Positions 35,477-49,864 of a stretch of 53,792 nt of DNA are shown in pieces. The stretch is from assembly GCA_030263375.1 (NCBI GenBank), contig SZOV01000011.1, positions 1-53,792 of the forward strand, in the 5' to 3' direction. Each line of letters begins with the position of its first letter. Position 1 is the first letter of the stretch. The notes beneath the pieces were generated by a model. The model searched no databases. It was not told where the DNA came from and saw nothing but the letters and a program-made list of their open reading frames with translations. The DNA comes from Deltaproteobacteria bacterium PRO3. Lineage in GTDB: Bacteria; UBA10199; DSSB01. The translations under genes and the position numbers were made by a program.

Positions 35477-36139
35477 TTAGCAGTAGCCCTTGAAGAAGGC
35501 CAAATTGCCGGACAGTTTGTCCTGCTGATTCCTGGAACGGATCGAAAATTCCCCCTCAGAAGTCGGCCACATAGCCGTTACATTGTCACCCTTGGCGCGA
35601 AGTGCGTCAACTCGCCGTTGACGACTCTGGTGATACTGACGCCAGGCCTGCAAAAAATCGCCGTGCTCCGGAAAGGCGGCCTCCACGAAAGCCTGGTGGG
35701 AAAGCACGTCGCGCGAAATCTTCTCCAGGACTAGCAGTCGCTTTTCTTCGCCGAGACAGCGGATCTGATGCCGATATTGCTGGTTCAAGAAATCCAGAGC
35801 TTCTTGATGTATGTTGAAGAAGGGGTCTTGGCTCGCCAAGGTATTCAGAGCCGAGACCAGCCAATGGGCCTTGCCAAGCAGGGATTTCCTTCGGTCGGCA
35901 CAGTCGGAATTTTGAGCTTCTGTGGTAAGGCCGAACATGAGAGCCATGGTGCGATCCACCAAGTTATCGATATGACGGCTCTCGGGTGAAAAAGAGAACC
36001 CATGGCTTCGCAAGCTCGGAGGCAAAGGGGGTACGACGTCGTTGAATTCAGAAAAGTCCTCTAGAAAAGAAATCTCCGGCATCTGGTCATCCGCCTGATC
36101 CAAAAGCTGTTTCAACGCCAATTCGAGATTTTCTTCCAT
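35477..36139 (-). CDS. Unknown helical protein of the accessory segment
   Basis: 220 residues from the ATG at 36139, preceded by GGGGGG. Acidic N-terminus (MEENLELALKQLLDQADDQ), then a helical region with HWLVSALNTLASQDPFFNIH and KRLLVLEKISRDVLSHQAF. No signal peptide or membrane segment. An open frame upstream (MFNLLKLLNL...) runs through the promoter and is rejected. A sigma54-type promoter ends 26 bases before the start. First gene of a two-gene operon; function unknown. Confidence 0.75.
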   Translation of the reverse strand: MEENLELALKQLLDQADDQMPEISFLEDFSEFNDVVPPLPPSLRSHGFSFSPESRHIDNLVDRTMALMFGLTTEAQNSDCADRRKSLLGKAHWLVSALNTLASQDPFFNIHQEALDFLNQQYRHQIRCLGEEKRLLVLEKISRDVLSHQAFVEAAFPEHGDFLQAWRQYHQSRQRRVDALRAKGDNVTAMWPTSEGEFSIRSRNQQDKLSGNLAFFKGYC

Positions 36140-36164
36140 GGTGTTCCCCCCTGCCTCGAGATAA

Positions 36165-36180
36165 AGCAAGCGGAATGCCA
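36165..36180 (-). promoter_or_regulatory. Sigma54-type -24/-12 promoter P1
   Basis: On the minus strand the sequence is TGGCATTCCGCTTGCT. TGGCA and TTGC are correctly spaced (GG to GC 10 bases apart) for the sigma54 consensus. It would start transcription about 15 bases before the 220-residue gene. The sequence around it (TTTTGGCATTCCnCTTGCTTT) is shared with P2. Confidence 0.8.
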
Positions 36181-36241
36181 AAATTAAATTTAATAATTTC
36201 AATAAGTTAAACAATTCATTTTATTCCCATAAGTTCAAAAA

Positions 36242-36257
36242 TGTAAAAATTTTGTAA
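36242..36257 (+). promoter_or_regulatory. Island motif copy S1 (TGTAA-N6-TGTAA), probable activator site
   Basis: TGTAAAAATTTTGTAA is a direct repeat of TGTAA one helical turn apart. It lies 61 bp upstream of P1 (outside the promoter), a position usual for enhancer sites of sigma54 activators. The same pattern recurs at 37818 and 42525. The gap 36140-36534 holds this motif, P1, and a hairpin; I accept no gene in it. Confidence 0.6.
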
Positions 36258-36451
36258 TAATTTCCTGCGCCGCTTATACATCTCCCTCATCAAGTCAGCA
36301 GGTATGCAATATCCTTCGAACGCTCCCATGGCGGACGATTCAGTAATCCCCAAGGTCATGGGTTTTTTTGGCAACGCCGGCCTATTGTGGGCAACCTTCG
36401 GCGGTAAAAACATCGCAGGTACTTTTTATGCAGCCCGTGGCTAGCGTCATA

Positions 36452-36485
36452 ACGAGGGTCCCGGGGGTGAAGCCGAGACCCTCGT
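36452..36485. terminator. Stem-loop after the Cys-rich secreted protein gene
   Basis: ACGAGGGTC pairs with GACCCTCGT around a 16-base loop. It lies 50 bases beyond the stop of the minus-strand gene at 36535. No T-run follows on either strand, so it may be a weak or Rho-assisted terminator or an mRNA-end stabiliser. Confidence 0.45.
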
Positions 36486-36534
36486 CACACGTCTCCAAAA
36501 AATCACGAAAACAAACCGAACTGATGCAAGCCCC

Positions 36535-37662
36535 CTAGGAGCGCTTCCGGGAAATTATTTGCCACCCAACTCGACGAACTATCGCCAAGCCGGCGAACGC
36601 CAAGAGGAGAATCCGCCAACCCGGAAGGGACGATGACAAAGCCTGACCCGGCGTTAAGGAACATCCCGAACCCGATATTTCCGAAGCCTGTCCCAGCACC
36701 GAAGGTGCGGCGGCCGGCATGACCGTCGCGCCCCCCGTCGAAGTCTTTTCTCCACCCGCTTCGTCGGAGCCCGGATTTTCCGCTCCGTTTTGTTTTGAAT
36801 CGGACAACAGATCGGGATTGTAAACGAAGTGGACCGGCGGATTATCAGCCTGCGCGAGGCCATTGGCCAGTTTGAGCGCGAAAGGCAGGTTGCAAGCACC
36901 GAAGACGTTCTGGCCATGGGTATCCGAGGCGTGTTTCCAGGCGTGGTCTCGGATCATATCGTGCGCCTTTTTACTGCAGGAATAGTAGGAATCTTGGAAC
37001 TTGCAATCGTAAGACAACAAAAACTTGAGATGGCTCTTCATTTCGTCTTTACAAAAGGCCTCCGCATTTGCGCATGCCTGAGTGGGTTGGTCGGTCTTGA
37101 CCATCGAGGAACAGACCGTATGAGCGAAAGCGCCCATATCATCCTGGCTGATTTGGATATTTCCTTCTTTCCAGATACATTGCTTCAACTGACCGATGCT
37201 ATTGCTGCCCGCCACAAATTGATGCAAATCTTTCTGCAAAGCCAACAAATGCTCATAGGTGCATAGGATCTTGCTGTTGGCGTGGATGCAGGTCGATCCA
37301 ATAGCCTTGTCGTACCATCCTCCGACCTGCTCCTTGCAATCGGCGACTTCGGCCGCGCATTCCACCGAGGAAGGAACGTTACACTGAAAATTGACCGTCT
37401 TTTCCCTCCAATTGGGGGTCATCTCGTAGGTTGATACGCCGGTGGCAACGGGTGGAGCCGCGGATGTCGGTTGCTCTTCCGGTGCATTGGCCGCCGGATC
37501 TGCATATTGGGCGCTTCCGGCGCCCTCTTTGGTGCCGCAACTAATACCCAGGGTGATGGCGCCCAACAGTGTTTCCGCATCCGTTTTACAATCGGCGCGG
37601 CTGACGCTGCTGAGCATTGAGATTCCAAACAAAAGGCTAAAAGCCCATACGATTTTTTTCAC
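36535..37662 (-). CDS. Cys-rich secreted protein with C-terminal sorting tail
   Basis: 375 residues from a GTG at 37662 with GGAGG four bases before. The signal peptide (KKIVWAFSLLFGISMLSSVSRA) is followed by a Cys-rich mature domain (about 14 Cys, e.g. ECAAEVADCKEQVGGWYD, AFCKDEMKSHLKFLLSYDC). A Gly/Ser/Pro linker leads to SGSGCSLTPGQALSS, one hydrophobic span (WRILLLAFAGLAIV) and a basic end (RRVGWQIISRKRS). This tail matches the Cys-type JDVT/MYXO-CTERM sorting signals, so the protein is probably cleaved and placed on the cell surface. A sigma54-type promoter (P2) lies upstream. Function unknown. Confidence 0.82.
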   Translation of the reverse strand: MKKIVWAFSLLFGISMLSSVSRADCKTDAETLLGAITLGISCGTKEGAGSAQYADPAANAPEEQPTSAAPPVATGVSTYEMTPNWREKTVNFQCNVPSSVECAAEVADCKEQVGGWYDKAIGSTCIHANSKILCTYEHLLALQKDLHQFVAGSNSIGQLKQCIWKEGNIQISQDDMGAFAHTVCSSMVKTDQPTQACANAEAFCKDEMKSHLKFLLSYDCKFQDSYYSCSKKAHDMIRDHAWKHASDTHGQNVFGACNLPFALKLANGLAQADNPPVHFVYNPDLLSDSKQNGAENPGSDEAGGEKTSTGGATVMPAAAPSVLGQASEISGSGCSLTPGQALSSSLPGWRILLLAFAGLAIVRRVGWQIISRKRS

Positions 37663-37679
37663 ACGTCCTCCATTTCGAT

Positions 37680-37694
37680 GGCCCCTGCGGGGCC
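37680..37694 (-). promoter_or_regulatory. Hairpin in the leader of the Cys-rich secreted protein
   Basis: GGCCCC TGC GGGGCC forms a tight 6-bp stem in the mRNA leader, directly before the ribosome site and 18 bases before the start codon. It could limit translation or stabilise the message. On the opposite strand it is followed by five T and would also act as a terminator. Confidence 0.45.
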
Positions 37695-37739
37695 GTTTTT
37701 AAATTCCAAAAGGGCCCGTCTGGCCCTGGCGGACTTAAA

Positions 37740-37755
37740 AGCAAGAGGAATGCCA
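37740..37755 (-). promoter_or_regulatory. Sigma54-type -24/-12 promoter P2
   Basis: On the minus strand: TGGCATTCCTCTTGCT, almost identical to P1. It lies 77 bases before the start of the Cys-rich secreted protein. Spacing of GG and GC fits sigma54. Confidence 0.8.
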
Positions 37756-37817
37756 AAAAAATTAACCAATGAATTTCAGTTAGTTACAAAGATAAGGGCG
37801 CAATCCAAGACGAAGAG

Positions 37818-37833
37818 GGTAATTATTTTGTAA
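37818..37833 (+). promoter_or_regulatory. Island motif copy S2, shared by two divergent promoters
   Basis: GGTAATTATTTTGTAA, matching S1 at most positions and continuing TAA as S1 does. It lies 62 bp from P2, compared with 61 bp between S1 and P1, in the same orientation. It is also 117 bp upstream of P3 on the other side, so one site could serve both directions. Confidence 0.55.
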
Positions 37834-37950
37834 TAAATGAACTGCGTTAAGGTTAGAAAATTAACTTTTCTCAATTCCGCGGTCGCCCCAATTTCTCGGC
37901 AATTTTAATATGTCCAGGAAATCTCGCTCGTTTTATCCCCGCCACCGATA

Positions 37951-37966
37951 TGGCATGCCCTTTGCT
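37951..37966 (+). promoter_or_regulatory. Sigma54-type -24/-12 promoter P3
   Basis: TGGCATGCCCTTTGCT fits the extended consensus TGGCAY-R-N4-TTGCW at every fixed position. Transcription would begin near 37977, 37 bases before the start codon of the 219-residue protein, whose ribosome site is AAAGGAG. Confidence 0.85.
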
Positions 37967-38013
37967 TTTCTTTCACTCAAGCGGTGAATGAAATCGCCCA
38001 AAGGAGTCAAAGC

Positions 38014-38673
38014 ATGCCAGTCAGCGCCGTTCCCTTCGAATTCTTCGCTTACCGTGGGTATGAATGGGATGAAAAGACCCATATCCTTCAATCCCGCCCC
38101 GGCCTCGGGCCGAATGACTACGGCGGTTTTGAACTCGGGCTCTGTCGTGCCGAGTCCGCGATGGGCGCTCGCCTGCGGGTGGCGAGCGAAGAATCCGGCG
38201 CCGACCAATTCCAACCGGAGCAGATCCGTAACCTCCAACGCCTTCTGGGGCTGGCGCCTGCCTCCAGCGTCCTCATCCTCGATCGCGAATCCCGGGAACC
38301 CGGACGCATCTGCATCCAATCCGGCGATCCTCAGTGGTCCAAATCCATGTACCGCCGGGTGAGGGCGGGCTGCGAGGAGGCCCTGGGCAAGGAGGATCCT
38401 CGCAACGAAACCCGATGCGCCACGCTGGAGCAGACGCTCAAGGCCGCGGCACGGGAGCAGTCGCCTTGGGAACGATTCGTCGAGACGTTGCCGGTCGGCA
38501 CCGGATTCTTCGTGCCCGGCGCGGTGGCCGGCGGGCTGGTGATGCTGGGGAAAACATTATGGACGCGTTTCGCCGCGCCGGCTCCCCTGATCGTCGTCCT
38601 GCCGAACTGCGAGTCCTCGCCCGACTGGAAGCGTTTGCCCGGCATCTGCGCCGGCGGTTCCGATTCGATTTAG
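38014..38673 (+). CDS. Unknown protein, first gene of the sigma54-type operon
   Basis: 219 residues from the ATG at 38014 (AAAGGAG seven bases before). No signal peptide. The N-terminal 120 residues are alpha/beta (FEFFAYRGYEWDEKTHI, SSVLILDRESREPG). One Gly/Ala-rich hydrophobic segment (VGTGFFVPGAVAGGLVMLG, about 165-183) could cross or enter a membrane. The tail has two Cys. Nine bases separate it from the next gene, whose ribosome site (AGGAGGT) starts on the stop codon. I recognise no family. Confidence 0.78.
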   Translation: MPVSAVPFEFFAYRGYEWDEKTHILQSRPGLGPNDYGGFELGLCRAESAMGARLRVASEESGADQFQPEQIRNLQRLLGLAPASSVLILDRESREPGRICIQSGDPQWSKSMYRRVRAGCEEALGKEDPRNETRCATLEQTLKAAAREQSPWERFVETLPVGTGFFVPGAVAGGLVMLGKTLWTRFAAPAPLIVVLPNCESSPDWKRLPGICAGGSDSI

Positions 38674-38681
38674 GAGGTATC

Positions 38682-40538
38682 ATGACCATTTCCTTGCTTA
38701 AGAAAAACGGAGAGTTTTTCCCGCGGGTCGAGCTTCGAGAAGCTCCCTCGACTCCGATGGTGACCGATCATCCGGCGGAAGCCGGACCCACCCATCCCCC
38801 TTCCGGCGCCCTCGGCCCACAGGCCTTTCGCCAACCGGCAGTGTTCCGCATGGATCCGCGACTCCGACGCGATTTCGGGATAGCGGGCTCTGGCGGCGCC
38901 GCCATCTTGGCCGCGGGCGCCGTCGCAATGGCGATCCGGCGCGAGGATATTGCAGAAATCATGCGCCGCTTGATCTTGTCCCAAGATTCCCAAGAGAAGA
39001 AGGCCCTGCTCGATGGACTCTTCGAAGAGGTCCCGAGAGATCCCTACTTTTTCCGCCCCTTGTTGCTCCTGGCCCAGGTAGGAGACCCGGCGGAATCCGC
39101 CCTCGTCGATCGGCTCATGAAGCTAGACCTCGACGCGTGGAAGCCTTTGGCGGTCGAGGATGCGGAGGTGCTTTGGGCCTTGGCGGTCTTAGGCGAGAGC
39201 CTCCGGCACGAGGGGGCGCGCCAGATCCTGCGGGAGCTGGATTTGACGGCTTATCGCGGCCGGGCTCAGGCGGATTTCGGCGAAATGCTCTCGATCGCAC
39301 CGGAGCTGTTTCTCATGGCCGAGTTGGGAAACCCCCAGGCTTGGTGGCTATTGGGCGAGGCGGACGTGACTGCCCTGGTGTCGGTGCTCGCGGGCTATCG
39401 CCGCGACCAGTACGACCTGTCTGACGCCCGTCTGGCGCTGGAAGCGTTGGTTTATGTGGCCCGGAGCGGAGGCAAGAACAGTTATGCCGCCATCGAGGCC
39501 TTGAGACGCGAATATATTCGGGAAGAATGGATCGCCAACCGGGAGGCCGTGGCGGAGGTGCTGGGACCTCTGCTGGAAATCGGCAACGAATCCGCCCGCG
39601 AGATCGCCGCCGGGCTCGATCTCCAAACCCTCCGCAAGCTGCCCACTCGCCACGGCGACCCCATGATGGCCGAGATTTCCCTCTACGAAGCGATCGCCGT
39701 CGCTTTCGAGTACTCCCGATGCTCTCAATCCTTGGACCTTCTGGTGAAGGCGGCCGAGGACGACGATTCGGATGCCATGGTCGTTCTCCTGCTGCTGAGA
39801 TGGCTAGGAGTTGCGGAGGGCGATCTGCGCATGTCCGCCTTGGATCCCTGGCCCTTCAAGGAGGAAGCTAAGAAGCAAAATCTAATCGAGTGGGCGGCCG
39901 CGATGCTTGACGGCACTCTCTTATCCTACCATCGCTCCTTGCAGTTCTTGGAGGAGCGGGTCCGAGCCCAGCCCGGAATCGACTCTCTCCCATCCAAAGA
40001 CCCCGAGGAAATCGCCGCTGGAATCCTGAAAGCCTGGCGTCAAGAGCCGCACCGCGACTTTTACTTGAGGCAGGAAGGCAAGCCGATGAGCCTGGAACTG
40101 ATCCCTTCCTTGTATATCGAAGATTATGTCGAGCGCAGCCTCGAGCTATGGGCCCAAGGCAAGAGGCTGATCCACAATGGGCCCGTCGAGCGGAGACCGG
40201 TGGAAGTCGTTCTCGAAAAGGATCGAGCGCGGGAAATCGAGCAGATCCACATAGAAATGACGCTGGTATTGGACGAGGCCTTCCTCTCGCTTCCACCCGA
40301 ACAGCGCCAAATTGTCGCCGAGGACGCCCATGCCGCCTGGCGGGCGCTTTCGCCTTCGGATCGGGAACCTTACAAGCGCGAACTCCCCGAGAAAGGGCCG
40401 GATGCGCTGCCCCCGCCCACCTTCCTGCTCGCCTTTCATCGAAGCAACTCGGCCCTGTTCCGGCCTTGGAGCAAGGCGGAGCTGGGTGAAGAAGCCGAAC
40501 AGGACGCGAACAAGAAGGGACCCAAGTCCTTTCATTGA
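38682..40538 (+). CDS. Unknown helical-repeat protein, paralog 1
   Basis: 618 residues, paralogous to the next gene. It starts MTISLLKKNGEFFPRVEL. A QPAVFRMDPRLRRDFG segment is followed by the Gly/Ala-rich hydrophobic stretch GSGGAAILAAGAVAMAIR (about 65-85). The middle is built of imperfect helical units of the form (I/L/V)G(N/D)-x2-A-x3-L-x3-D-L-x2-L, for example LGNPQAWWLLGEADVTAL and IGNESAREIAAGLDLQTL, and holds YVARSGGKNSYAAIEALR. The C-terminus has LSPSDREPYKREL and SNSALFRPWSKAELG. No signal peptide, no catalytic motif known to me. Probably a structural, binding or secreted effector-like protein. Confidence 0.8.
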   Translation: MTISLLKKNGEFFPRVELREAPSTPMVTDHPAEAGPTHPPSGALGPQAFRQPAVFRMDPRLRRDFGIAGSGGAAILAAGAVAMAIRREDIAEIMRRLILSQDSQEKKALLDGLFEEVPRDPYFFRPLLLLAQVGDPAESALVDRLMKLDLDAWKPLAVEDAEVLWALAVLGESLRHEGARQILRELDLTAYRGRAQADFGEMLSIAPELFLMAELGNPQAWWLLGEADVTALVSVLAGYRRDQYDLSDARLALEALVYVARSGGKNSYAAIEALRREYIREEWIANREAVAEVLGPLLEIGNESAREIAAGLDLQTLRKLPTRHGDPMMAEISLYEAIAVAFEYSRCSQSLDLLVKAAEDDDSDAMVVLLLLRWLGVAEGDLRMSALDPWPFKEEAKKQNLIEWAAAMLDGTLLSYHRSLQFLEERVRAQPGIDSLPSKDPEEIAAGILKAWRQEPHRDFYLRQEGKPMSLELIPSLYIEDYVERSLELWAQGKRLIHNGPVERRPVEVVLEKDRAREIEQIHIEMTLVLDEAFLSLPPEQRQIVAEDAHAAWRALSPSDREPYKRELPEKGPDALPPPTFLLAFHRSNSALFRPWSKAELGEEAEQDANKKGPKSFH

Positions 40539-40566
40539 AAGACCTTAGATCCAAAGGAGCATGACG

Positions 40567-42471
40567 ATGACCATTGCGATACTCAAGAAAAGCGGAGAAT
40601 TCTTCCCGCCGGCCGTTCTGAGGGATTTCCCCCCGATCGCGGTCGATAAACCCAGGGAAGGACATGCACTATCGCCTCTCACCGGCGCGACCCCGCTGGG
40701 CGACGGAGGCTTTCGCCAACCCGCCGTGTTCCGGCTGGATCCGAAGGTTCGGAAGGACTCGGGGCCCGGAATCTCGCTGGGTTCTGCCGCCATATTGGCT
40801 GGGGGCGCCGTCGCGATGGCGATCCGGTGGGAAGATATCGACAAGCTCTTGGACACCTTGTGTTCCTCGATCAGCAGGGCGGAAAAGAGATCCATTATAG
40901 ATCGGCTCATCGAGGAGGCCCGGCAAAATCCCCTTGTCGTTCCCGCCATGCTCCAGCGAATCGCCGATCCGAAAATGCCGAGCGAGGAAATCCTCCAGGG
41001 CCTCGCAAGGCTCGACCTAGGCGCTTGGGAAGATCTCGCGAAGCAGAACCATTTGGTCCTCACGATATTATTCGCGATGCACGAGGTGGTGCAGCACGAA
41101 GGCGCGCGGGCGATGCTGCAAAGACTTGATCTTCAGGAAATCCGAAATGATGTTCTGGAGCATGAGTTCGGACTTTTCTTGCACGCCGACGATCTGATGG
41201 TCCTGGCCGAGCTGGGCAATTCGCAAGCCTGGTCCATCCTAGGCGAAGTGGACATTCGTGTCTTGCAATCCGCCATCCGGCACTATCGCCAAGGCGAGGC
41301 GGATTTCGAAGATAATGCGCGTCTGGCCATCCTCACGATGACTTACGTCGCGAGGAGCGGCGGCAAGAACGGCTATGCCGCCATCGAGGCCTTGAGAAAC
41401 GAGACCATCGGAGCGGACTTGATTTGGGACCGCGAAGCGGTTTTGGAGGTCCTCGGACCACTGCTGGCGCTGGAAAATCCCTCGGCTCAAGAGCTTGCCC
41501 GAAGCCTTGACCTGGAAGCGCTCCAGAAATTGCCCTCGCGCAACAAGCCCAGCAACATCCGCCGCGTCGCGCTCTACGACGCGATTGGAGCCGTTCTGGA
41601 GCATTCTCAATGCAAACGTTCCTTGGGTCAATTGGTCCAAGCGGTCGAGGCTGGGGATCCGGAGGCCTTTCGCGTCCTGGATATGCTAGCTAGAAAAGGT
41701 TACAAACCCGCGCAGGATTACCTGAACACCTCCGTCTCGCTCGCCATTGACAATCGGAAGATGGGACGAAAGCCAAATGAAGCACTGATCAACCTCACTC
41801 TAGCCATCTTGGGTCAGGGAAGCCGAAGCCTGAATGCTTCCTTCCGCGCCTTGCGCACCCAGGTCCTGGAACACCCCGGCATCAAAGCGATCGGTTCGAT
41901 CACCGTAGCCCATGAGGTTTCGATCGGCATCTGGAAGGCGTGGAGAGACGAGCCGCTCCGCGACATTTATCTTCGGCTGGAAACGAAGCCGATGAGCTCG
42001 GAGCTGATCCCCTCGTCCTACATCGAAGCCTACGTCGAGCATAGCCTCGAGCGGAACGCCAAGGGCTTGGACCTGGTCCATGAAGGCATCCTGCCGCCGG
42101 AGGACTGGAAGGGCTGGGAGCTGACAGAGGATCTAGCGCCCAAGCCCAGCCCAGAGGAGCTTGAGTCCTTTGACTTGCGCAATCGGATCAGTCTGGGAAT
42201 GGCCATGAATTGGGGGACGGCATTCACGGAATTACCACCCGATCAGAAAAGGGTCCTGGCGTCGGAGATCGCCGCCTCGTGGCTTGAGCTTTCGCCTTCG
42301 GATCGCCAGGCCTTCGCGGAACAATCCCCGGGAGAACTCTTTCCCTCGGCATTTCTCCGCAGTTTTGAAGCATCCAACTCCGCACTGTTCCGGCCCTGGA
42401 GCGATGCGGAGCTCGGGAATGACCTGGGAAAAGATCCGAAGCGTGGGGGCGGCCCCAAAGGAATACATTAG
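40567..42471 (+). CDS. Unknown helical-repeat protein, paralog 2
   Basis: 634 residues. The ATG at 40567 is chosen over 40561 because AGGAG sits 7 bases before it and because MTIAILKKSGEFFP then aligns with MTISLLKKNGEFFP of paralog 1. Shared blocks are FRQPAVFRLDP, SAAILAGGAVAMAIRWEDI, LAELGNSQAWSILGEVDI, YVARSGGKNGYAAIEALR, DREAVLEVLGPLLAL and SNSALFRPWSDAELG. Differences lie mainly between blocks. The hydrophobic stretch, helical units and lack of a signal peptide are the same. Tandem duplication followed by divergence is the likely origin. Cotranscribed with the genes before it. Confidence 0.8.
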   Translation: MTIAILKKSGEFFPPAVLRDFPPIAVDKPREGHALSPLTGATPLGDGGFRQPAVFRLDPKVRKDSGPGISLGSAAILAGGAVAMAIRWEDIDKLLDTLCSSISRAEKRSIIDRLIEEARQNPLVVPAMLQRIADPKMPSEEILQGLARLDLGAWEDLAKQNHLVLTILFAMHEVVQHEGARAMLQRLDLQEIRNDVLEHEFGLFLHADDLMVLAELGNSQAWSILGEVDIRVLQSAIRHYRQGEADFEDNARLAILTMTYVARSGGKNGYAAIEALRNETIGADLIWDREAVLEVLGPLLALENPSAQELARSLDLEALQKLPSRNKPSNIRRVALYDAIGAVLEHSQCKRSLGQLVQAVEAGDPEAFRVLDMLARKGYKPAQDYLNTSVSLAIDNRKMGRKPNEALINLTLAILGQGSRSLNASFRALRTQVLEHPGIKAIGSITVAHEVSIGIWKAWRDEPLRDIYLRLETKPMSSELIPSSYIEAYVEHSLERNAKGLDLVHEGILPPEDWKGWELTEDLAPKPSPEELESFDLRNRISLGMAMNWGTAFTELPPDQKRVLASEIAASWLELSPSDRQAFAEQSPGELFPSAFLRSFEASNSALFRPWSDAELGNDLGKDPKRGGGPKGIH

Positions 42472-42588: not shown

Positions 42589-45500
42589 ATGATAATTTCG
42601 GCTCCCATCGCGGCCCGCTTTCGGATCGAAAGGCTTCTTGGCCAAGGCAGCTTGGGGAAAGTCTTTCTGGCCCGCCAACAGGACAAGCCCATTGCTCTCA
42701 AGGTCCTGCGCGAAGATCTGCCTCCCGCTACCCTCGAATTTTTGCGGGAGGAAGCCCGGGTACTTTCGCAACTGTCCCATCCCAATTTGGTCAAGATCCT
42801 GGATTTCTTTCAGGGCGACGCAGGCGCAGGGACCCCCGCCTGCATCGCCATGGAGTTCTTGGACGGCGAGACGCTCGACCGCTTGCCTGAGGAATGCCCG
42901 ATAGAGCAGTGGGAGGATATCATTCTCCAAACCTGCCAGGGCCTGGATTACCTTCACCACCGCAACATCCTGCACCACGATCTCAAACCTTCCAATCTCC
43001 TGCTAACCCGCTCCGGCCAGATCAAGATCCTGGATTTCAGTCTCGCGACGCCATCCGGGCTTGGTCGGCGGACTGCGGCGATCAGGGGCACGCTACCCTT
43101 CCTTCCGCCCGAGATCTTCTCGGGTCTTTACGACGAGCGCAGCGATCTCTTCGCCTTGGGGGTTGTCTTCTACAAGCTTTTGAGCGGAAAATTTCCCTAC
43201 TCCGAAATTCTCCGCCCCGAGCGCCTGGGCCAGATTGGCAGTCCTCCGTCTCCCCGCCTCTCCCGACCTCTTATTCCCGAGTACCTCGAAGCCCTACTCC
43301 TCAAACTCTTGAACCTGGACCCCCGTCATCGTCCCGGGTCGGTGCGCACCGTGCTGCGCTACCTGCGCAATCACCGGGAGGAATTGGAGGCGCAGCCGGC
43401 CGAGCGCCAGGATCTGCCGATCGAGAAGCTTCCTCTGATCGGCCGGCAGCGCGAATGGGAGGCCTTGCAAGATCACCTGAGCGGCGGCTCGAGAATGGTC
43501 TTGCTCAACGGTCCCACCGGCGTCGGCCGCAGCCGCTTGCTGGAAGAGCTGCGCTGGAAACATCTCTTGCAGGGAGATTTTTTTCGCCAGCAGGGCCCGC
43601 CCTCGGAAACGGGGTGGCTGGAGTTTCCGGAGGGCGAGGCGATACCGGGCGATGCCTATGCCAAGGCGGAGGCCTACGCCATTTGGGTTCAAGGTCGGAA
43701 AGGAATCCTCGCCTATACCGAGCTGCACCGGTGGAATTCGTTGGAGTTGGCGGATCTCGAGGTTTTCCTCAAGGTCCTGTCGAGGCGGCATGGCGACTTG
43801 GGGATCGTCCTGGAATGGGACTCCGACCACATGCGGAAGGAAGCGCTATTCCGGAAGTCTCCGGAACTGCTTCGGGACGCCCGCGAGATCCGCCTCAATG
43901 ACTTGGACGAAACCGCCACCTTGAGTCTGCTGACTGAATTTGCCGCAGGTACGGAGATCGCTCCCGAGCAGCTCGCAGACATCGCACGCATTTCGGGCGG
44001 CCGTCCTTTGTTGGCGCTGGAAAATCTCAAGGCTTTCCTCGCGGATCGCGCAGAATCTGATGTCCACAAAATCCATTGGGCGATTCCCAAGAGCTTGGAA
44101 GAAGCTTCTTTTCGCCGATATCAAGGACTGGGAGAAGCCGCCAAACGGCTCCTTTCCTTCATCGTCCTGGCCCCGCGGGACCCCGAGAGGCACGAGATCG
44201 AAGAATGCTGGGATGGTGAGGTTTCGGAGCTGGATGCGGCTCTCGCGGAACTGGACCGCAAGGAATGGCTGCGGTCCCGCAGTCCCTTGCAACCCAAGCT
44301 TTCGCTTCGTTACCCCAGTCTACGAGCCGGTCTTTCCAAATTCTTCGAGAGCCAGGCCGGCACAGCCGTGCTGCGCACCTGGGCGGAATACTTTGCGCGA
44401 GCCTGGCGGGCGACGACACGAGAGGAAGATTTGTTCCATCTCCTAACCTGCGCACAAGAGGGCGGCTTCCAGGACCTCCTGATCGGATACGCCTTCGAGG
44501 CGATTCCCCGCTTGGAGCGCCGAAACTTGTATGACCGCGCCATCGCCCTGACCGAGGTTCTTTGCCGATTGCCGGACGGCGCGGTCGACCCAGTCTTGCT
44601 CCACGCCCACCGCGCCAATCTATTTTATCGTCTCGACCGCTTCGAGGACAGCCTTCGGGCCTACGAGCAATGGTTCAGCGTGCGCGTGGACGACGAGTCC
44701 AAACTGCAGCTGACCAAATACCTTTTCTATACCGGCCTCGTAAATTACAGCTGGGGCCATTCCGAGAATGCCATAACGGTTCTCGAGCGATGTTTGAAGG
44801 CCGGCGATGCATCCCGATTTCCGAAGCTTCTGCCCTATCAGGCCCGGGCTTATCTGCTCTTGGCGAGGCTGGCTCAAAAAGTCCGGGCTTATTCCCTGGC
44901 ACAGGAACACCTGGACCGCGCTCGGAAACTGCCTTTGGAAGATGCGGAGATCCTCGGCGAAATCGAGCAAGTCTCGGGCGAGATCTGCCTTCGCGAGCTC
45001 CGTTACGACGAAGCCCTGTCGCGCCTGGAGGCTTGCCAGGCGCATTATCAAGCGACAGGACGCCCGCAACTGATAGCGCTGGGGCATGGTGGCAAGGCCG
45101 CGATCTTGCAAGAGCGCGGACGCCTGCGGGAAGCTCTCAAGGAAATCGAAAGCGCCATTTCGCAGGCCGAGGCCTCGGGCTACCGGACGCAACGCGCCCG
45201 ATATCTCGGCAATCGTGCCCTGTTGCTTTCCGAGCTGGGCCGATATGCCGAGGCTCGTGAGACCATGCAGCAATCGCTGGCGGTCTTGCAGGTCCTTGGC
45301 AACCCCACCGAGCAAGCGATCGCCAAAATTCAGTGGATGCAAATTCAGTTGGATTGCGGCAAGACCCAAAACCTACAAAATGCCTTCGGGGAGCTCAGCG
45401 AAGACCTCGAAGCCTTGGATGCCCTTAACCTGGTCGACTCGCTTTTGCAGTTGCGGGGAGAGGCGGCTCTTCAATACCGCGACTATGGCCTGGCCAAGAA

Positions 45501-47661
45501 TATCTTCGAAAGGCTGCTGGATCGGGACAGACGCTTGGACGTACGGGCTCGGCGGATCGCCCTATGGGGTAAGTGGCGAGCACAGTTTCTGGCGGGCTGG
45601 CCCGATGTCCAATTTCATGAGGCCGAGGCTGATTTCGCAAAGGGCACCGTCTCGCCTCAGGATGAGGCCATCCGTGATCTGTCGAGATTCCTATCGTCGG
45701 ATCCAAGGGCCCTCTCTCGGGAAATGGCGCTGCAGGTTTTTTCCTCGCTTGAGGGAATCGAAAGTGTCGGATTTCGCCTGACTTGCCACTATTTGCTGAA
45801 AGTATTTTTTGATCGTCACGGCCTGGAGGGGCTGTCGGCACAGACTCAGACATTGGAAGACTCGCTATGGCGGGCCTTGTCGGCCAACCAACCGGAGGAA
45901 ATCAAGATGGACATCGAGAACAAGCGCAGTTTGTTCGATCTCAATGAGGACCTAAAAAAACCGCTGCAGCGGGCTGCTCAAAAAGAGGCCGTCGGAGTAA
46001 AGTCTGCCTCCTTGCCTCCTCCAGTCGATCGACAGGCGGCTCGGATCAGCGAGGAGCGTTTCCGCCAGTTTTGCGAAATCACCAACCGGGTCGCGCAGAA
46101 GGAAGTTCTGACGGAGATTTTGGAGCTCCTTATGGATTCCTCACTGCTTCTCACCGGCGCCGAACGCGGCTTCGTCATATTAGAAAATCCCAAGTCCAAG
46201 GACGGCAAGTTTCCGGGTTTCGAGGTCGCCATGGCGCGGCACCTCAGCCGCCAAGTCCTGGCCGAGGAGGAATTCAAGCTCTCACTGACCTTGGTCAAAA
46301 AGGCGATCCAAGGCGGCTCCCCCGTGCTGAGCCGCGATGCCCAGGCGGAAGACGAGTTCCACAAGCTTAAATCGGTTCACCTCTATCAGCTTCGCTCTGT
46401 CCTGGTCGTGCCCCTGGAGATCGCAGGGCGGGTCTTTGGCGCACTTTACCTAGACCACCGATACAAGACGGACTGCTTCGGGACGGAAGACTTGTTGCTG
46501 ATCAAAGGGTTCGCAACGCAGGCGGGCCTCGCGATCCAGCGCGCGCAGATGATGGAAGCGTTGAAGAAGAGGCAGCAAAGACTCGAGAATCAAGTGTCTG
46601 AGCAGGCTCAGACCATCGAAAGCCTGCACGTAGAGATCAAGGAAGCTCGCAGCCATCTCAAGTACGAGTACCAAGACATCGTCGGCAATTCCCCGGCCAT
46701 CATGCAGGTCTTCCGGATGATGGAGCACGTTACGAAGACCAAGATTCCCGTCTGGATTTGGGGAGAGTCCGGTACGGGGAAGGAATTATTCGCCCGTTCC
46801 CTGCACTTCAACAGCCCCTGGAAATCAGGTCCTTTCGTCTCGGAGAACTGCAGCTCGATTCCGGAGAACTTGTTGGAAAGCGAGCTTTTCGGTCATAAGA
46901 AGGGCGCCTTCACCCATGCCGACCGTGACCGCGTCGGGCTCTTCGAGCAGGCCGACCACGGCACCCTGTTCTTGGACGAAGTTGCCGATATGCCGCTGCC
47001 CATGCAAATAAAGCTGCTCAGGGTCCTCCAGGAGGGCGAAATCCGGCCTCTTGGCTCGAACAAGAAGGTTAAGGTTGACGTGAGACTGGTAACGGCCTCG
47101 AACAAAGATTTGGCGCAATTGGTGCGCGAGGGGAAATTCCGCGAAGACCTGTTCTACCGCATCAACGGGCTTACGCTGCGTCTCCCCCCCCTGAGGGAGC
47201 GCCGGGAGGACATTCCCGACTTGGTGCAGCACCTGATTCAGAGGGTCGCGAAACGCTTCTTCCTCAAGCCCTGCAAGGTGACCAAAGAGGCCTTCCACAT
47301 GCTGATGAAACATGACTGGCCCGGCAATGTACGGCAGCTCGAGGGCATTGTGCGCAACGCGATGATGTTCGCCGATGGCGAGGCCATTACGCCGGCGATC
47401 CTCAAGATGACGGAATTGGCCGTGCCATCCTCTAGTCCCGCCCAGCCCGCTGCAGGCCCGCTTTCGGGCCGCAGGAAGGGCGATGAATCTGAAAGTGAGC
47501 GCGCCCAGTTGATCGAGGCGCTTCGGAGGCACAGCATGGACAAGAACAAGGTCGCACAGGAGCTGGGCATAACACTCAAGAGCGTTTATGTTCGCATGGA
47601 GCGGCACGGCATCCCGAAAAAAAATTCGCTACTCATGAAATTTTTGACGGAGGCGAGTTGA
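42589..47661 (+). CDS. Giant kinase-ATPase-TPR-GAF-sigma54 activator
   Basis: 1690 residues. Residues 10-270 form a Ser/Thr kinase: GQGSLGKVFLA loop, Lys in ALKVLRED, HHDLKPSN (about 129-136, HRD changed to HHD), ILDFSLA (DFG changed to DFS) and LPPEIF. An ATPase module follows with Walker A GPTGVGRS (about 308), where Lys is replaced by Arg. TPR-like helices span about 640-1090 and a GAF domain about 1151-1325. After a coiled coil (about 1330-1365) comes a sigma54-interacting AAA+ domain: Walker A GESGTGKE (1391), GAFTHA (1439-1444) in place of GAFTGA, LFLDEVADMP and REDLFYRIN. A Fis-type HTH ends it (about 1637-1680). It probably senses a signal and activates P1-P3. Its weak ribosome site suggests low expression. 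Confidence 0.92.
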   Translation: MIISAPIAARFRIERLLGQGSLGKVFLARQQDKPIALKVLREDLPPATLEFLREEARVLSQLSHPNLVKILDFFQGDAGAGTPACIAMEFLDGETLDRLPEECPIEQWEDIILQTCQGLDYLHHRNILHHDLKPSNLLLTRSGQIKILDFSLATPSGLGRRTAAIRGTLPFLPPEIFSGLYDERSDLFALGVVFYKLLSGKFPYSEILRPERLGQIGSPPSPRLSRPLIPEYLEALLLKLLNLDPRHRPGSVRTVLRYLRNHREELEAQPAERQDLPIEKLPLIGRQREWEALQDHLSGGSRMVLLNGPTGVGRSRLLEELRWKHLLQGDFFRQQGPPSETGWLEFPEGEAIPGDAYAKAEAYAIWVQGRKGILAYTELHRWNSLELADLEVFLKVLSRRHGDLGIVLEWDSDHMRKEALFRKSPELLRDAREIRLNDLDETATLSLLTEFAAGTEIAPEQLADIARISGGRPLLALENLKAFLADRAESDVHKIHWAIPKSLEEASFRRYQGLGEAAKRLLSFIVLAPRDPERHEIEECWDGEVSELDAALAELDRKEWLRSRSPLQPKLSLRYPSLRAGLSKFFESQAGTAVLRTWAEYFARAWRATTREEDLFHLLTCAQEGGFQDLLIGYAFEAIPRLERRNLYDRAIALTEVLCRLPDGAVDPVLLHAHRANLFYRLDRFEDSLRAYEQWFSVRVDDESKLQLTKYLFYTGLVNYSWGHSENAITVLERCLKAGDASRFPKLLPYQARAYLLLARLAQKVRAYSLAQEHLDRARKLPLEDAEILGEIEQVSGEICLRELRYDEALSRLEACQAHYQATGRPQLIALGHGGKAAILQERGRLREALKEIESAISQAEASGYRTQRARYLGNRALLLSELGRYAEARETMQQSLAVLQVLGNPTEQAIAKIQWMQIQLDCGKTQNLQNAFGELSEDLEALDALNLVDSLLQLRGEAALQYRDYGLAKNIFERLLDRDRRLDVRARRIALWGKWRAQFLAGWPDVQFHEAEADFAKGTVSPQDEAIRDLSRFLSSDPRALSREMALQVFSSLEGIESVGFRLTCHYLLKVFFDRHGLEGLSAQTQTLEDSLWRALSANQPEEIKMDIENKRSLFDLNEDLKKPLQRAAQKEAVGVKSASLPPPVDRQAARISEERFRQFCEITNRVAQKEVLTEILELLMDSSLLLTGAERGFVILENPKSKDGKFPGFEVAMARHLSRQVLAEEEFKLSLTLVKKAIQGGSPVLSRDAQAEDEFHKLKSVHLYQLRSVLVVPLEIAGRVFGALYLDHRYKTDCFGTEDLLLIKGFATQAGLAIQRAQMMEALKKRQQRLENQVSEQAQTIESLHVEIKEARSHLKYEYQDIVGNSPAIMQVFRMMEHVTKTKIPVWIWGESGTGKELFARSLHFNSPWKSGPFVSENCSSIPENLLESELFGHKKGAFTHADRDRVGLFEQADHGTLFLDEVADMPLPMQIKLLRVLQEGEIRPLGSNKKVKVDVRLVTASNKDLAQLVREGKFREDLFYRINGLTLRLPPLRERREDIPDLVQHLIQRVAKRFFLKPCKVTKEAFHMLMKHDWPGNVRQLEGIVRNAMMFADGEAITPAILKMTELAVPSSSPAQPAAGPLSGRRKGDESESERAQLIEALRRHSMDKNKVAQELGITLKSVYVRMERHGIPKKNSLLMKFLTEAS

Positions 47662-47663
47662 AC

Positions 47664-48362
47664 TCAGGGCGCCGCTTCGGGCATATGCACAAGGTTGGCC
47701 TTGGAGCGATTGGAATCCGCCTTGTCGGCGTCGTTCCCGGGGTTTGACAAGGGTAAGTCCATGGGTTTGACCTCGAGCACCACCAAGTGCGAATTTGGAA
47801 GATCGCATTTTGGGTCGGCGCAGGGCTGGGTCTTGCCCCACTGTTCGGAAGGGACGGTGGCGGCTTCGGCACTCAGGTAAAAGACTAAGGTGGCGGAGGT
47901 TGAGCCCAATACCTCCTGGGCGGCAATGAAGGGGACATTGATTTCCAACTCCACAGCAGCGGTTCCTGGGGAATCACCCTTGGGTTGGACAACTACATCC
48001 GTGTAATTGAGGGTCCGAAAATCGATCGCCCTTAGCACATGGCCGGCGAAGTCGGGCGCCGCGGCGATAATTTTGGACACCTCGCCAGAGATGAAAAGGG
48101 TGCCCTCATTGGTTTTTTGGAAATCACCGTAGATGCTGAGCCGGTATTTGGCCTGCTTACCGGGATCGAAATGAGTGCCGGGGGCCCCGCTTTCTTGGAT
48201 AGGGGCGGCTAAATTCCCGGCGGGGGGGACGGCGACGGGACCTCCACCCACGGGACCGCTCAGCCCTCCCGAACAGGCGAAAAGTTGCAGCAAACAGGCC
48301 CAAGCAAGATAAATATCCTTATTTTTCAAGTACCTACGCGTAATTCCCCTCGTGAAATCCAT
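47664..48362 (-). CDS. Putative lipoprotein of the accessory segment
   Basis: 232 residues. After a basic start (ITRRYLKNKD) the segment IYLAWACLLQLFAC ends in a lipobox (LFAC-SGG), so it should be lipidated at Cys30. A Gly/Pro linker follows, then a beta-rich domain (YRLSIYGDFQKTNEGTLFIS, ATLVFYLSAEAATV) with a CADPKCDLP pair that may form a disulfide. No family is recognised. It is convergent with the large regulator with a 2-bp gap. I found no sigma54-type promoter before it, so its place in the regulon is uncertain. Confidence 0.75.
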   Translation of the reverse strand: MDFTRGITRRYLKNKDIYLAWACLLQLFACSGGLSGPVGGGPVAVPPAGNLAAPIQESGAPGTHFDPGKQAKYRLSIYGDFQKTNEGTLFISGEVSKIIAAAPDFAGHVLRAIDFRTLNYTDVVVQPKGDSPGTAAVELEINVPFIAAQEVLGSTSATLVFYLSAEAATVPSEQWGKTQPCADPKCDLPNSHLVVLEVKPMDLPLSNPGNDADKADSNRSKANLVHMPEAAP

Positions 48363-48958
48363 GGACGACCACTTAAGCTATTTTCGGAATAGAACTCTCA
48401 AAAGGTTCGTTTTTTGCGATTTTTCAGAACTCTACCCTTTTGAAGGTCAGTTTCAGCTGATTGGAGGCGAATTTCAACTGCGATGAGTGGCTCATCGGGA
48501 AAAGTGAAATAATTATTCATTTTTCTTATTCGACACTCGTGGCGCGGGGTAAATCGACCTTCTTTTGGTTGGAGCAATCGGAACTTCCGATTTTGGTTAA
48601 GCAGATAACAACTCTTTGTGTCTCCTGGCAAAAGAATCTGGGGTTTCATAGCCCAAGCTAGAGATGGGGCGCTCGCGAGTGGCGTTGCCTTTGTCTACGC
48701 CTTCGATCGTTATTCCGCAGCCGCCGGTTATCAACAGGCTCCCCCGCTCAAGCCATCTCGCTACGCCTCCAATCCATCTAGGCGATACGCAAATGCGCTC
48801 CCGCCTTTATCTATTGATTTGTTATCCATGCAGCGCGATCGGGCATGTTAAAAGTTCCATGTTGAGATTCAAGCCGAATTAAGCGAAATGTCCTCCGGTT
48901 GGCAAATCGTTGATATATCGACGACCAAATATAAACCGCCCGACTCGAGGAACCCGAC
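48363..48958. other. 596-bp non-coding right edge of the accessory segment
   Basis: No accepted gene. Contents: AT-rich promoter-like sequence next to the lipoprotein gene, a pair of spaced repeats TTTCAGCTG / TTTCAACTG (48450-48480, 21 bp apart) like multiple end repeats of some insertion sequences, and a possible transposase remnant at 48597-48690. GC rises again at 48959. Several short open frames here are mutually overlapping and lack ribosome sites. Confidence 0.5.
48597..48690 (-). pseudogene. Possible IS3-type transposase C-terminal remnant
   Basis: On the minus strand one frame ends RERPISSLGYETPDSFARR and then HKELLSA, stop. RPxSSLGYxTPxxFA is the usual end of IS3-family OrfB integrases. 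Upstream in the same frame the sequence no longer resembles a transposase, so only the end survives. Recognition rests on one short motif. Confidence 0.4.
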
Positions 48959-49864
48959 GTGGACCTTCGCAAGCTCAAAGCGCTTTGGCTTCCCTTCGCG
49001 CTCTTCGCGTTGCTTGGCCTCGCCTGCCTGGGCGTCGAGGGTTGGAACCGCTATTTCCGCCAAATCGCCTCGCCTTTCCTGGCCCCCGGCCTTGGCTTCC
49101 TGGTTCTCAGTCTCTTCTTCCTGGTCCGGAGGCGAAGTGCCTACTTCGCCCTCTCCCTGCTCACCCTAAGCTACCTCGCCGCCTCGCTGACCCTGGGCCT
49201 CTGGGGCGACTTTCGCCGCCCCGCGGTGGCGCAGTGCTACCGCGAGTGGGCCTTCGACACGGCGACCGGACGGCTGCGCCTGCAGATCCCCCTGGGCCGT
49301 TCCGCTCCCAACCAAGGCGCCTACATCGCCTGCAGCTTCAGCCTGCGCGGCTGGTGGGACTACCTCGACGACCAACCCAACCTCTGCACGGCCTTCGACG
49401 ATCGGCTTCGGGTGGTGATGTTCCTCAACGACCAGGAAGTCGACAACGGGGTCTTGCGCGAATTTCAGATCAACCAGTTCGGCCTCCAATCCAAGAGCCT
49501 GCTGGGCGAGCCGCTGGACCGCGGCGCCCTGCGCATCGCGCTGCTGCGGGAGCCGGGACGCTTCCGCCCCGAGTTCCGCCTGAAGGCGATCTATCAGGTC
49601 TACGAACGCGAGCTGGAGGAAGGCCAGACCCGCGTCATCGAGAGCTTCACCCGCGACGGCCAGGGCAACCTGAAAAGCTTCACGGAGAGCTCGGCGCTGA
49701 ATTTGACGAACAAAGATCTCTACGCGGTGTATAATGCCCAGGGCGTCCTGACCGAGATCCCGCGGCTGAACACGCGGACCTTCGTCTTTCCCGCGCGGAT
49801 CGACGTCTCGGGCGTCGCGAAATACCAGATTCCACCGCTGCTCTATCCGGGGGTGAAGCTATGA
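48959..49864 (+). CDS. Membrane protein with soluble beta-rich domain, unknown
   Basis: 301 residues from a GTG at 48959, with GAGGAA about 6 bases before. Three hydrophobic segments lie in the first 95 residues (LPFALFALLGLACLGV, FLAPGLGFLVLSLFFLV, YFALSLLTLSYLAASLTLGL). The remaining 200 residues form a soluble, probably periplasmic domain with three Cys. No family is recognised. Its stop overlaps the ATG of the ferredoxin gene (ATGA), so the two are coupled; a redox role for the pair is possible but unproven. Confidence 0.78.
   Translation: MDLRKLKALWLPFALFALLGLACLGVEGWNRYFRQIASPFLAPGLGFLVLSLFFLVRRRSAYFALSLLTLSYLAASLTLGLWGDFRRPAVAQCYREWAFDTATGRLRLQIPLGRSAPNQGAYIACSFSLRGWWDYLDDQPNLCTAFDDRLRVVMFLNDQEVDNGVLREFQINQFGLQSKSLLGEPLDRGALRIALLREPGRFRPEFRLKAIYQVYERELEEGQTRVIESFTRDGQGNLKSFTESSALNLTNKDLYAVYNAQGVLTEIPRLNTRTFVFPARIDVSGVAKYQIPPLLYPGVKL

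Follow-up and report, generated by a model that had tools for sequence, protein, structure and literature searches.

The three boxes P1, P2 and P3, which lie within 1.8 kb of one another, are well supported as sigma54 (RpoN) promoters by every available sequence test, and they probably work as genuine promoters of a local, self-reinforcing circuit together with the putative activator F, IHF and a shared upstream element. All positions refer to the window, the whole 53.8 kb stretch of DNA that was analysed (53,792 nucleotides).

Boxes P1 to P3 and their regulon

The preliminary description of this DNA had reported three close matches to the sigma54 promoter sequence. All three 16-mers are present where reported, and each is an exact match to the pattern TGGCAYN5TTGCW, that is TGGCAYNNNNNTTGCW, with zero mismatches:

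36165..36180, minus strand: P1, sigma54 −24/−12 box TGGCATTCCGCTTGCT; exact match, ranked 2 of 64 in a leave-one-out comparison
37740..37755, minus strand: P2, sigma54 box TGGCATTCCTCTTGCT; exact match, ranked 6 of 64
37951..37966, plus strand: P3, sigma54 box TGGCATGCCCTTTGCT; exact match, ranked 26 of 64

P1, P2 and P3 all carry GG at −24 and GC at −12 at exactly the fixed spacing. P2 and P3 are divergent and 195 bp apart, and P1 is read in the same direction as P2. With a weight matrix trained on the other boxes of the genome, the window being left out, P1, P2 and P3 score 31.3, 27.5 and 29.8 bits, respectively. Since the next best place in the window reaches only 8.0 bits, the earlier statement that nothing comparable occurs elsewhere in it holds, and the context TTTTGGCATTCCnCTTGCTTT reported for both P1 and P2 is likewise correct. 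Transcription starts were predicted arithmetically from the −24/−12 positions fixed by each box, and a start codon with a ribosome site follows in every case: at P1 the predicted start near 36154 precedes an ATG at 36139, giving a leader of ∼15 nt with a G-rich ribosome site, at P2 the start near 37729 precedes a GTG at 37662 (ribosome site GGAGG), and at P3 the start near 37977 precedes an ATG at 38014 (ribosome site AAAGGAG).

The pattern was also searched across the whole genome (3.55 Mb, 198 contigs), which contains 66 exact matches, whereas the reversed pattern occurs once. The boxes are thus not as dense in random DNA of this genome, the comparison on which the preliminary description had proposed to judge the promoter reading. 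Genes around all 66 boxes were called by applying a codon-usage script to their surroundings; 64 of the boxes are extragenic by these calls, and most are found between some tens and ∼100 bases 5′ of an open reading frame with a ribosome site. The last base of the box is T in 90% of the sites and is followed by an AT-rich stretch with the best reading TTTATCT, which recurs nearly exactly behind P1. RpoN itself is encoded in one copy with an intact RpoN box (ARRTVAKYRE). Furthermore, an excess of boxes was found in all 46 genomes of the same class (6 to 60, against 0 to 4 for the control).

That P1–P3 are chance matches in non-functional sequence is barely credible. Besides the excess over the reversed control, a Markov model of the local intergenic sequence predicts 0.02 exact boxes per 20 kb, the boxes are positioned before open reading frames, and IHF-like sites accompany P1 and P2 (see below). 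It is because the box, regulon, ranking and RpoN tests all fit that we read P1–P3 as sigma54 promoters; with 66 boxes and the ranks given above, the three make up a minor share of a predicted regulon of approximately 65 promoters. The preliminary description had recorded neither this regulon nor the activator gene F, the shared upstream element and the IHF-like sites described below. The crowding of P1–P3, also remarked upon previously, is true as a count, three boxes falling within 1.8 kb, yet the chance of any such triple among 66 scattered sites is P = 0.034, which makes it only mildly unusual. Other pairs of boxes less than 1 kb apart occur on contigs C2, C14, C63, C90 and C98.

Elsewhere in the genome, exact boxes stand ∼54–127 bp before genes whose translations, judged by eye, resemble RecA, Ssb, the DNA-uptake protein ComEA and the ammonium transporter AmtB (G000:C43:14874, C15:38888, C115:520 and C77:10871; the ssb box lies inside the preceding gene). 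Three REP-type transposase-like genes, 83–88% identical, each follow a sigma54 box (G000:C5:37190, C5:42547 and C6:4421), representing either a sigma54-controlled transposase or boxes carried along with the element. Several other products, behind the boxes G000:C157:3612, C21:7213, C85:11401, C10:8400 and C50:815, show by eye an acidic, tyrosine-rich N-terminus (like YxDDYG...EDYxFGxEE) and helix-rich bodies, and appear to be related proteins of a lineage-specific set.

Genes behind the promoters

The genes that follow the three promoters are:

35477..36139, minus strand: gene A, 220 aa, first gene behind P1; without Pfam family
36535..37662, minus strand: gene B, 375 aa, predicted secreted, Cys-rich, behind P2; without Pfam family
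38014..38673, plus strand: gene C, 219 aa, first gene behind P3; without family
38682..40538, plus strand: gene D, 618 aa, paralogue of E (46% identical)
40561..42471, plus strand: gene E, 636 aa, paralogue of D
42589..47661, plus strand: gene F, 1690 aa, probable activator of P1–P3 (Pfam and sequence)

No Pfam family was found for any of A to E. Among 59 relatives, two of them from the same genus, no orthologues of B, D or E were detected, and a scan of named genomes gave no match for protein E, whose predicted fold was unusable (mean pLDDT of 44, all-helical). At G000:C30:17611-18474 (L088:7612-8475), near the sigma54 box at C30:14962, lies a gene whose product is distantly related to protein D (26% over 308 aa). 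The C-terminal tail of B, hydrophobic and then basic, matches a myxosortase-dependent protein model weakly (E = 0.022). C-termini resembling such a sorting tag, with a Cys segment, a hydrophobic helix and basic residues, were seen in secreted regulon products, in B itself (36535-37662) and at G000:C18:22084 and C14:44339.

The G+C content falls to 49–55% over 35–38 kb, and again at 48001–49000 of the window, against 62% for the genome; this, together with the genes lacking homologues in relatives, makes the stretch a probable lineage-specific, perhaps acquired, island. E and F are separated by a gap of 117 bp. C, D, E and F probably form an operon driven by P3, with F as its last gene, so that F would be carried on the P3 transcript.

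IHF-like sites and a shared upstream element

Upstream of the boxes, the following features were identified:

36196..36209, plus strand: IHF-like site of P1, ATTTCAATAAGTTA (read opposite P1); EM motif, 17.4 bits, centre ∼22 bp above the box
37773..37786, plus strand: IHF-like site of P2, ATTTCAGTTAGTTA; EM motif, 15.3 bits
36243..36260, minus strand: TTATTACAAAATTTTTAC, putative activator-binding element of P1, located 62 bp above its box
37819..37836, minus strand: TTATTACAAAATAATTAC, putative activator-binding element of P2, located 63 bp above its box; also 114 bp above the box of P3
37846..37865, no strand assigned: inverted repeat GTTAA-N10-TTAAC, weak second candidate activator site, between P2 and P3

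The EM motif, ATTTCAATAAnTTA, was obtained from the 100 bp above the boxes and is present in 48–49 of 62 promoters, with a log-likelihood ratio of 154 against 80–97 for locally shuffled sequence. It agrees with the IHF consensus WATCAANNNNTTR except at one base. At a threshold of 11 bits it occurs in 50% of the sigma54 promoters, a rate that is somewhat optimistic because it was scored on the motif's own training set, against 4.2% of 119 other upstream regions and 13% of AT-rich control upstream regions. At P1 and P2 the site falls between the 18-bp element and the box; at P3 no IHF-like site was found at the usual place, the best score there being 6.1 bits.

The centres of the IHF-like sites pile up approximately one helix turn apart, near −11, −22, −33 and −43 from the box. 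The phase preference at 10.5 bp is strong (Rayleigh R = 0.65, p = 2.5e-8, n = 42) and is also seen for the 31 best sites (p = 7e-7). Applying the same matrix to three other genomes, the motif was found in 30%, 41% and 16% of promoters, against 3%, 0% and 1% in shuffled sequence, with phase p values at 10.5 bp of about 0.005, 0.02 and 0.03; the two sets from outside the genus, although small in number, are the cleaner replication, since the same-genus set is partly orthologous to the training set.

RpoN promoters have been described as commonly having an IHF site between enhancer and promoter (PMC7962754). In the divergent orp1/orp2 operons of Desulfovibrio vulgaris, IHF sites between the activator sites and the sigma54 boxes are needed for expression, those at −79 and −43 being functional (PMC3897727). 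Some doubt attaches to the protein bound here: the motif was identified from sequence alone, T mostly stands where the E. coli IHF consensus has A as its second base, and the genome holds five HU/IHF-type genes, namely IHF alpha, IHF beta and three further ones, so HU, the C-terminal domain of the alpha subunit (UP element) or nothing at all might occupy it. We consider this unlikely, as the core TTCAA-N4-TTA agrees with the IHF consensus, the placement between activator site and box matches that of the proven orp1/orp2 sites, and both IHF alpha and IHF beta genes are present, above the NCBIfam cut-offs. IHF remains our preferred candidate for these sites.

The 18-bp element TTATTACAAAATnnTTAC is common to P1 and P2. 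Its 16 fixed bases, TTATTACAAAATNNTTAC, have two exact copies in the 3.55 Mb, those above P1 and P2. When promoters were compared pairwise outside the IHF zone, P1 and P2 were the 5th most similar of 1830 pairs. The top-ranked pair (C2:74009/74784) consists of two linked promoters, also beside a kinase-activator gene; ranks 2–4 are unlinked pairs, and the similarity of P1 and P2 alone is therefore not decisive. A recent duplication of one upstream region, rather than a common activator, would explain why box context, IHF-like site and 18-bp element recur in the same order at nearly the same spacing. Alignments showed, however, that the DNA between the three elements has strongly diverged, which suggests selection on the elements, and the genes behind P1 and P2 are unrelated; a duplication thus appears quite improbable. 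As a site for a common activator, the 18-bp element is a candidate binding site of F, resting on two copies, and the copy near P2 could serve both divergent promoters, P2 and P3. GTTAA-N10-TTAAC has its sole perfect copy of the window between P2 and P3, but because matches with up to 2 mismatches occur at chance level, it is a weak candidate.

Probable activator F, the GAFTHA clade and the proposed circuit

The domain order of F, determined with Pfam, is Ser/Thr kinase, AAA_16 (STAND-like), TPR, GAF, sigma54-activator AAA+ and Fis-type HTH. The AAA+ domain (PF00158, 228 bits) has Walker A and B motifs reading GESGTGKE and GTLFLDE, the C-terminal HTH scores above the cut-off for PF02954, and the kinase retains the lysine, the HxD and the D of DFx. 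The loop that contacts sigma54 departs from the canonical GAFTGA:

46903..46920, plus strand: GAFTHA codons, sigma54-contact loop of F; His replaces the second Gly of GAFTGA

In its C-terminal part, F shares the order GAF, sigma54 AAA+ and Fis HTH with activators of the NifA/NorR type; it differs from them in having approximately 1150 further residues (kinase, AAA_16, TPR), in the loop histidine and in scoring below the equivalog cut-offs (363 against 528.85 for nifA, the best NCBIfam hit, and 309 against 476 for NorR).

Near homologues of F, which come from its own genus, its own family and a second family of the class, also carry GAFTHA or GSFTHA, and the histidine is invariant in an alignment of 24 sequences. 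The 27 GAFTHA-type rows group together on one side of a branch with strong support (99/96), the loci concerned being 46903-46920 of the window, L112-L140 and L067. Among the activators from 80 loci in diverse named genomes, GAFTHA was seen in 0 of 71 loops, a background made up of distant activators from many phyla, returned by overly general patterns from the GAFTHA alignment.

The relevant literature offers one precedent, since the sole paper found to hold this loop in the literature searched lists GAFTHA in one Desulfovibrio vulgaris protein, among natural GAFTGA variants expected to keep activity (PMC4641369). That protein has the same loop as F and was judged compatible with activation; unlike the variants described there, the loop is here borne by a whole clade of kinase-activators linked to sigma54 boxes. 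In NorR, variants with Asn or Asp at the equivalent residue, G266, fully escape GAF-domain repression, and those with Gln, Ser, Cys or Met are likewise active without a signal; His is not among the substitutions named (PMC2941729).

GAFTHA-type genes are strongly associated with sigma54 boxes. Within 5 kb of 28 such genes there are 34 boxes, against 6.4 expected from each genome's own box density (P = 2e-14); with the window removed and one gene kept per orthologous set, 28 boxes remain against 5.0 (P = 1e-12). A box lies within 400 bp of the start in nine of the genes. The 11 GAFTGA-type activators from the same search have 4 boxes against 2.2 expected. By guilt by association, this enrichment places GAFTHA proteins with sigma54 promoters and makes F the natural candidate for P1–P3. 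The GAFTHA activators appear to be a single clade of the kinase-STAND-GAF-sigma54 type.

It might instead be that P1–P3 are real sigma54 promoters driven by another enhancer-binding protein, F regulating something else or being a mere target. Approximately 18 full-length activators are encoded in the genome, the loop of F is non-canonical, and the box nearest to F, P3, is 4.6 kb from its start, with none within 400 bp. Nevertheless, the 53.8 kb contig holds no activator gene besides F, and sigma54 boxes are strongly associated with the clade of F, while GAFTHA is listed as a natural variant from which activity is expected, and NorR stays active with several different substitutions at this position (references above). 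We regard another driver as having a small chance, and favour F as the likely activator of P1–P3.

From features that sequence statistics establish, namely the boxes and their regulon, RpoN, the IHF genes, the phased IHF-like sites, the shared element and the domains of F, we infer binding, direction of control and signal as follows. RpoN-RNA polymerase would form a closed complex on each of the P1, P2 and P3 boxes. F would sense a signal through its kinase, AAA_16, TPR and GAF parts and bind the element between P2 and P3 as well as its twin above P1. At P1 and P2, IHF bound between element and box would bend the DNA so that F meets the polymerase, and the AAA+ ring, through its GAFTHA loop, would open the complexes at all three promoters. 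P3 would in turn raise F, the output of the circuit being the predicted secreted, Cys-rich B together with A, C, D, E and more F.

The closest known arrangement is that of the divergent sigma54 operons orp1/orp2 of D. vulgaris, controlled by the activator DVU2106 and IHF (PMC3897727). In both systems, activator sites and IHF sites, putative ones in our case, lie between divergent sigma54 promoters, and both have an activator with a variant loop (GAFTDA there, PMC4641369; GAFTHA in F). They differ in that there are three promoters here, one of them without an IHF-like site, in that the controlled genes are unrelated, and in that F, unlike DVU2106, bears kinase, AAA_16, TPR and GAF parts. Several predicted targets of the regulon look secreted or lipid-anchored, which recalls the exterior-aimed sigma54 regulons of Francke et al. 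(2011; PMC3162934); unlike those, the proteins here are mostly without family and no pathway can be named.

As promoters, P1–P3 belong to a familiar type. The helical phase across the genome and the GAFTHA kinase-activator clade are new with respect to the searched literature, which yielded no report of a genome-wide phase preference of IHF sites relative to sigma54 boxes. IHF-assisted looping has so far been studied promoter by promoter. If confirmed, the phasing would offer a natural data set for the geometry of the contact between activator and polymerase. The GAFTHA clade poses the question of how a near-invariant sigma54-contact loop alters one residue and yet stays functional; the change sits at the position of NorR G266, at which substitutions free the protein from GAF-domain autoinhibition, and the GAF domain of F directly precedes its AAA+ domain. 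More broadly, we hold it an evenly balanced proposition that sigma54 control expanded in this uncultured lineage as a modular system, in which kinase-STAND-GAF activators of a single GAFTHA origin each have their own nearby promoters, and IHF sites stand at whole-helix-turn steps (centres at about −11, −22, −33 and −43) so that the bend always faces the same way. Were this true, the geometry required for IHF-assisted activation would be readable from genome sequence alone.
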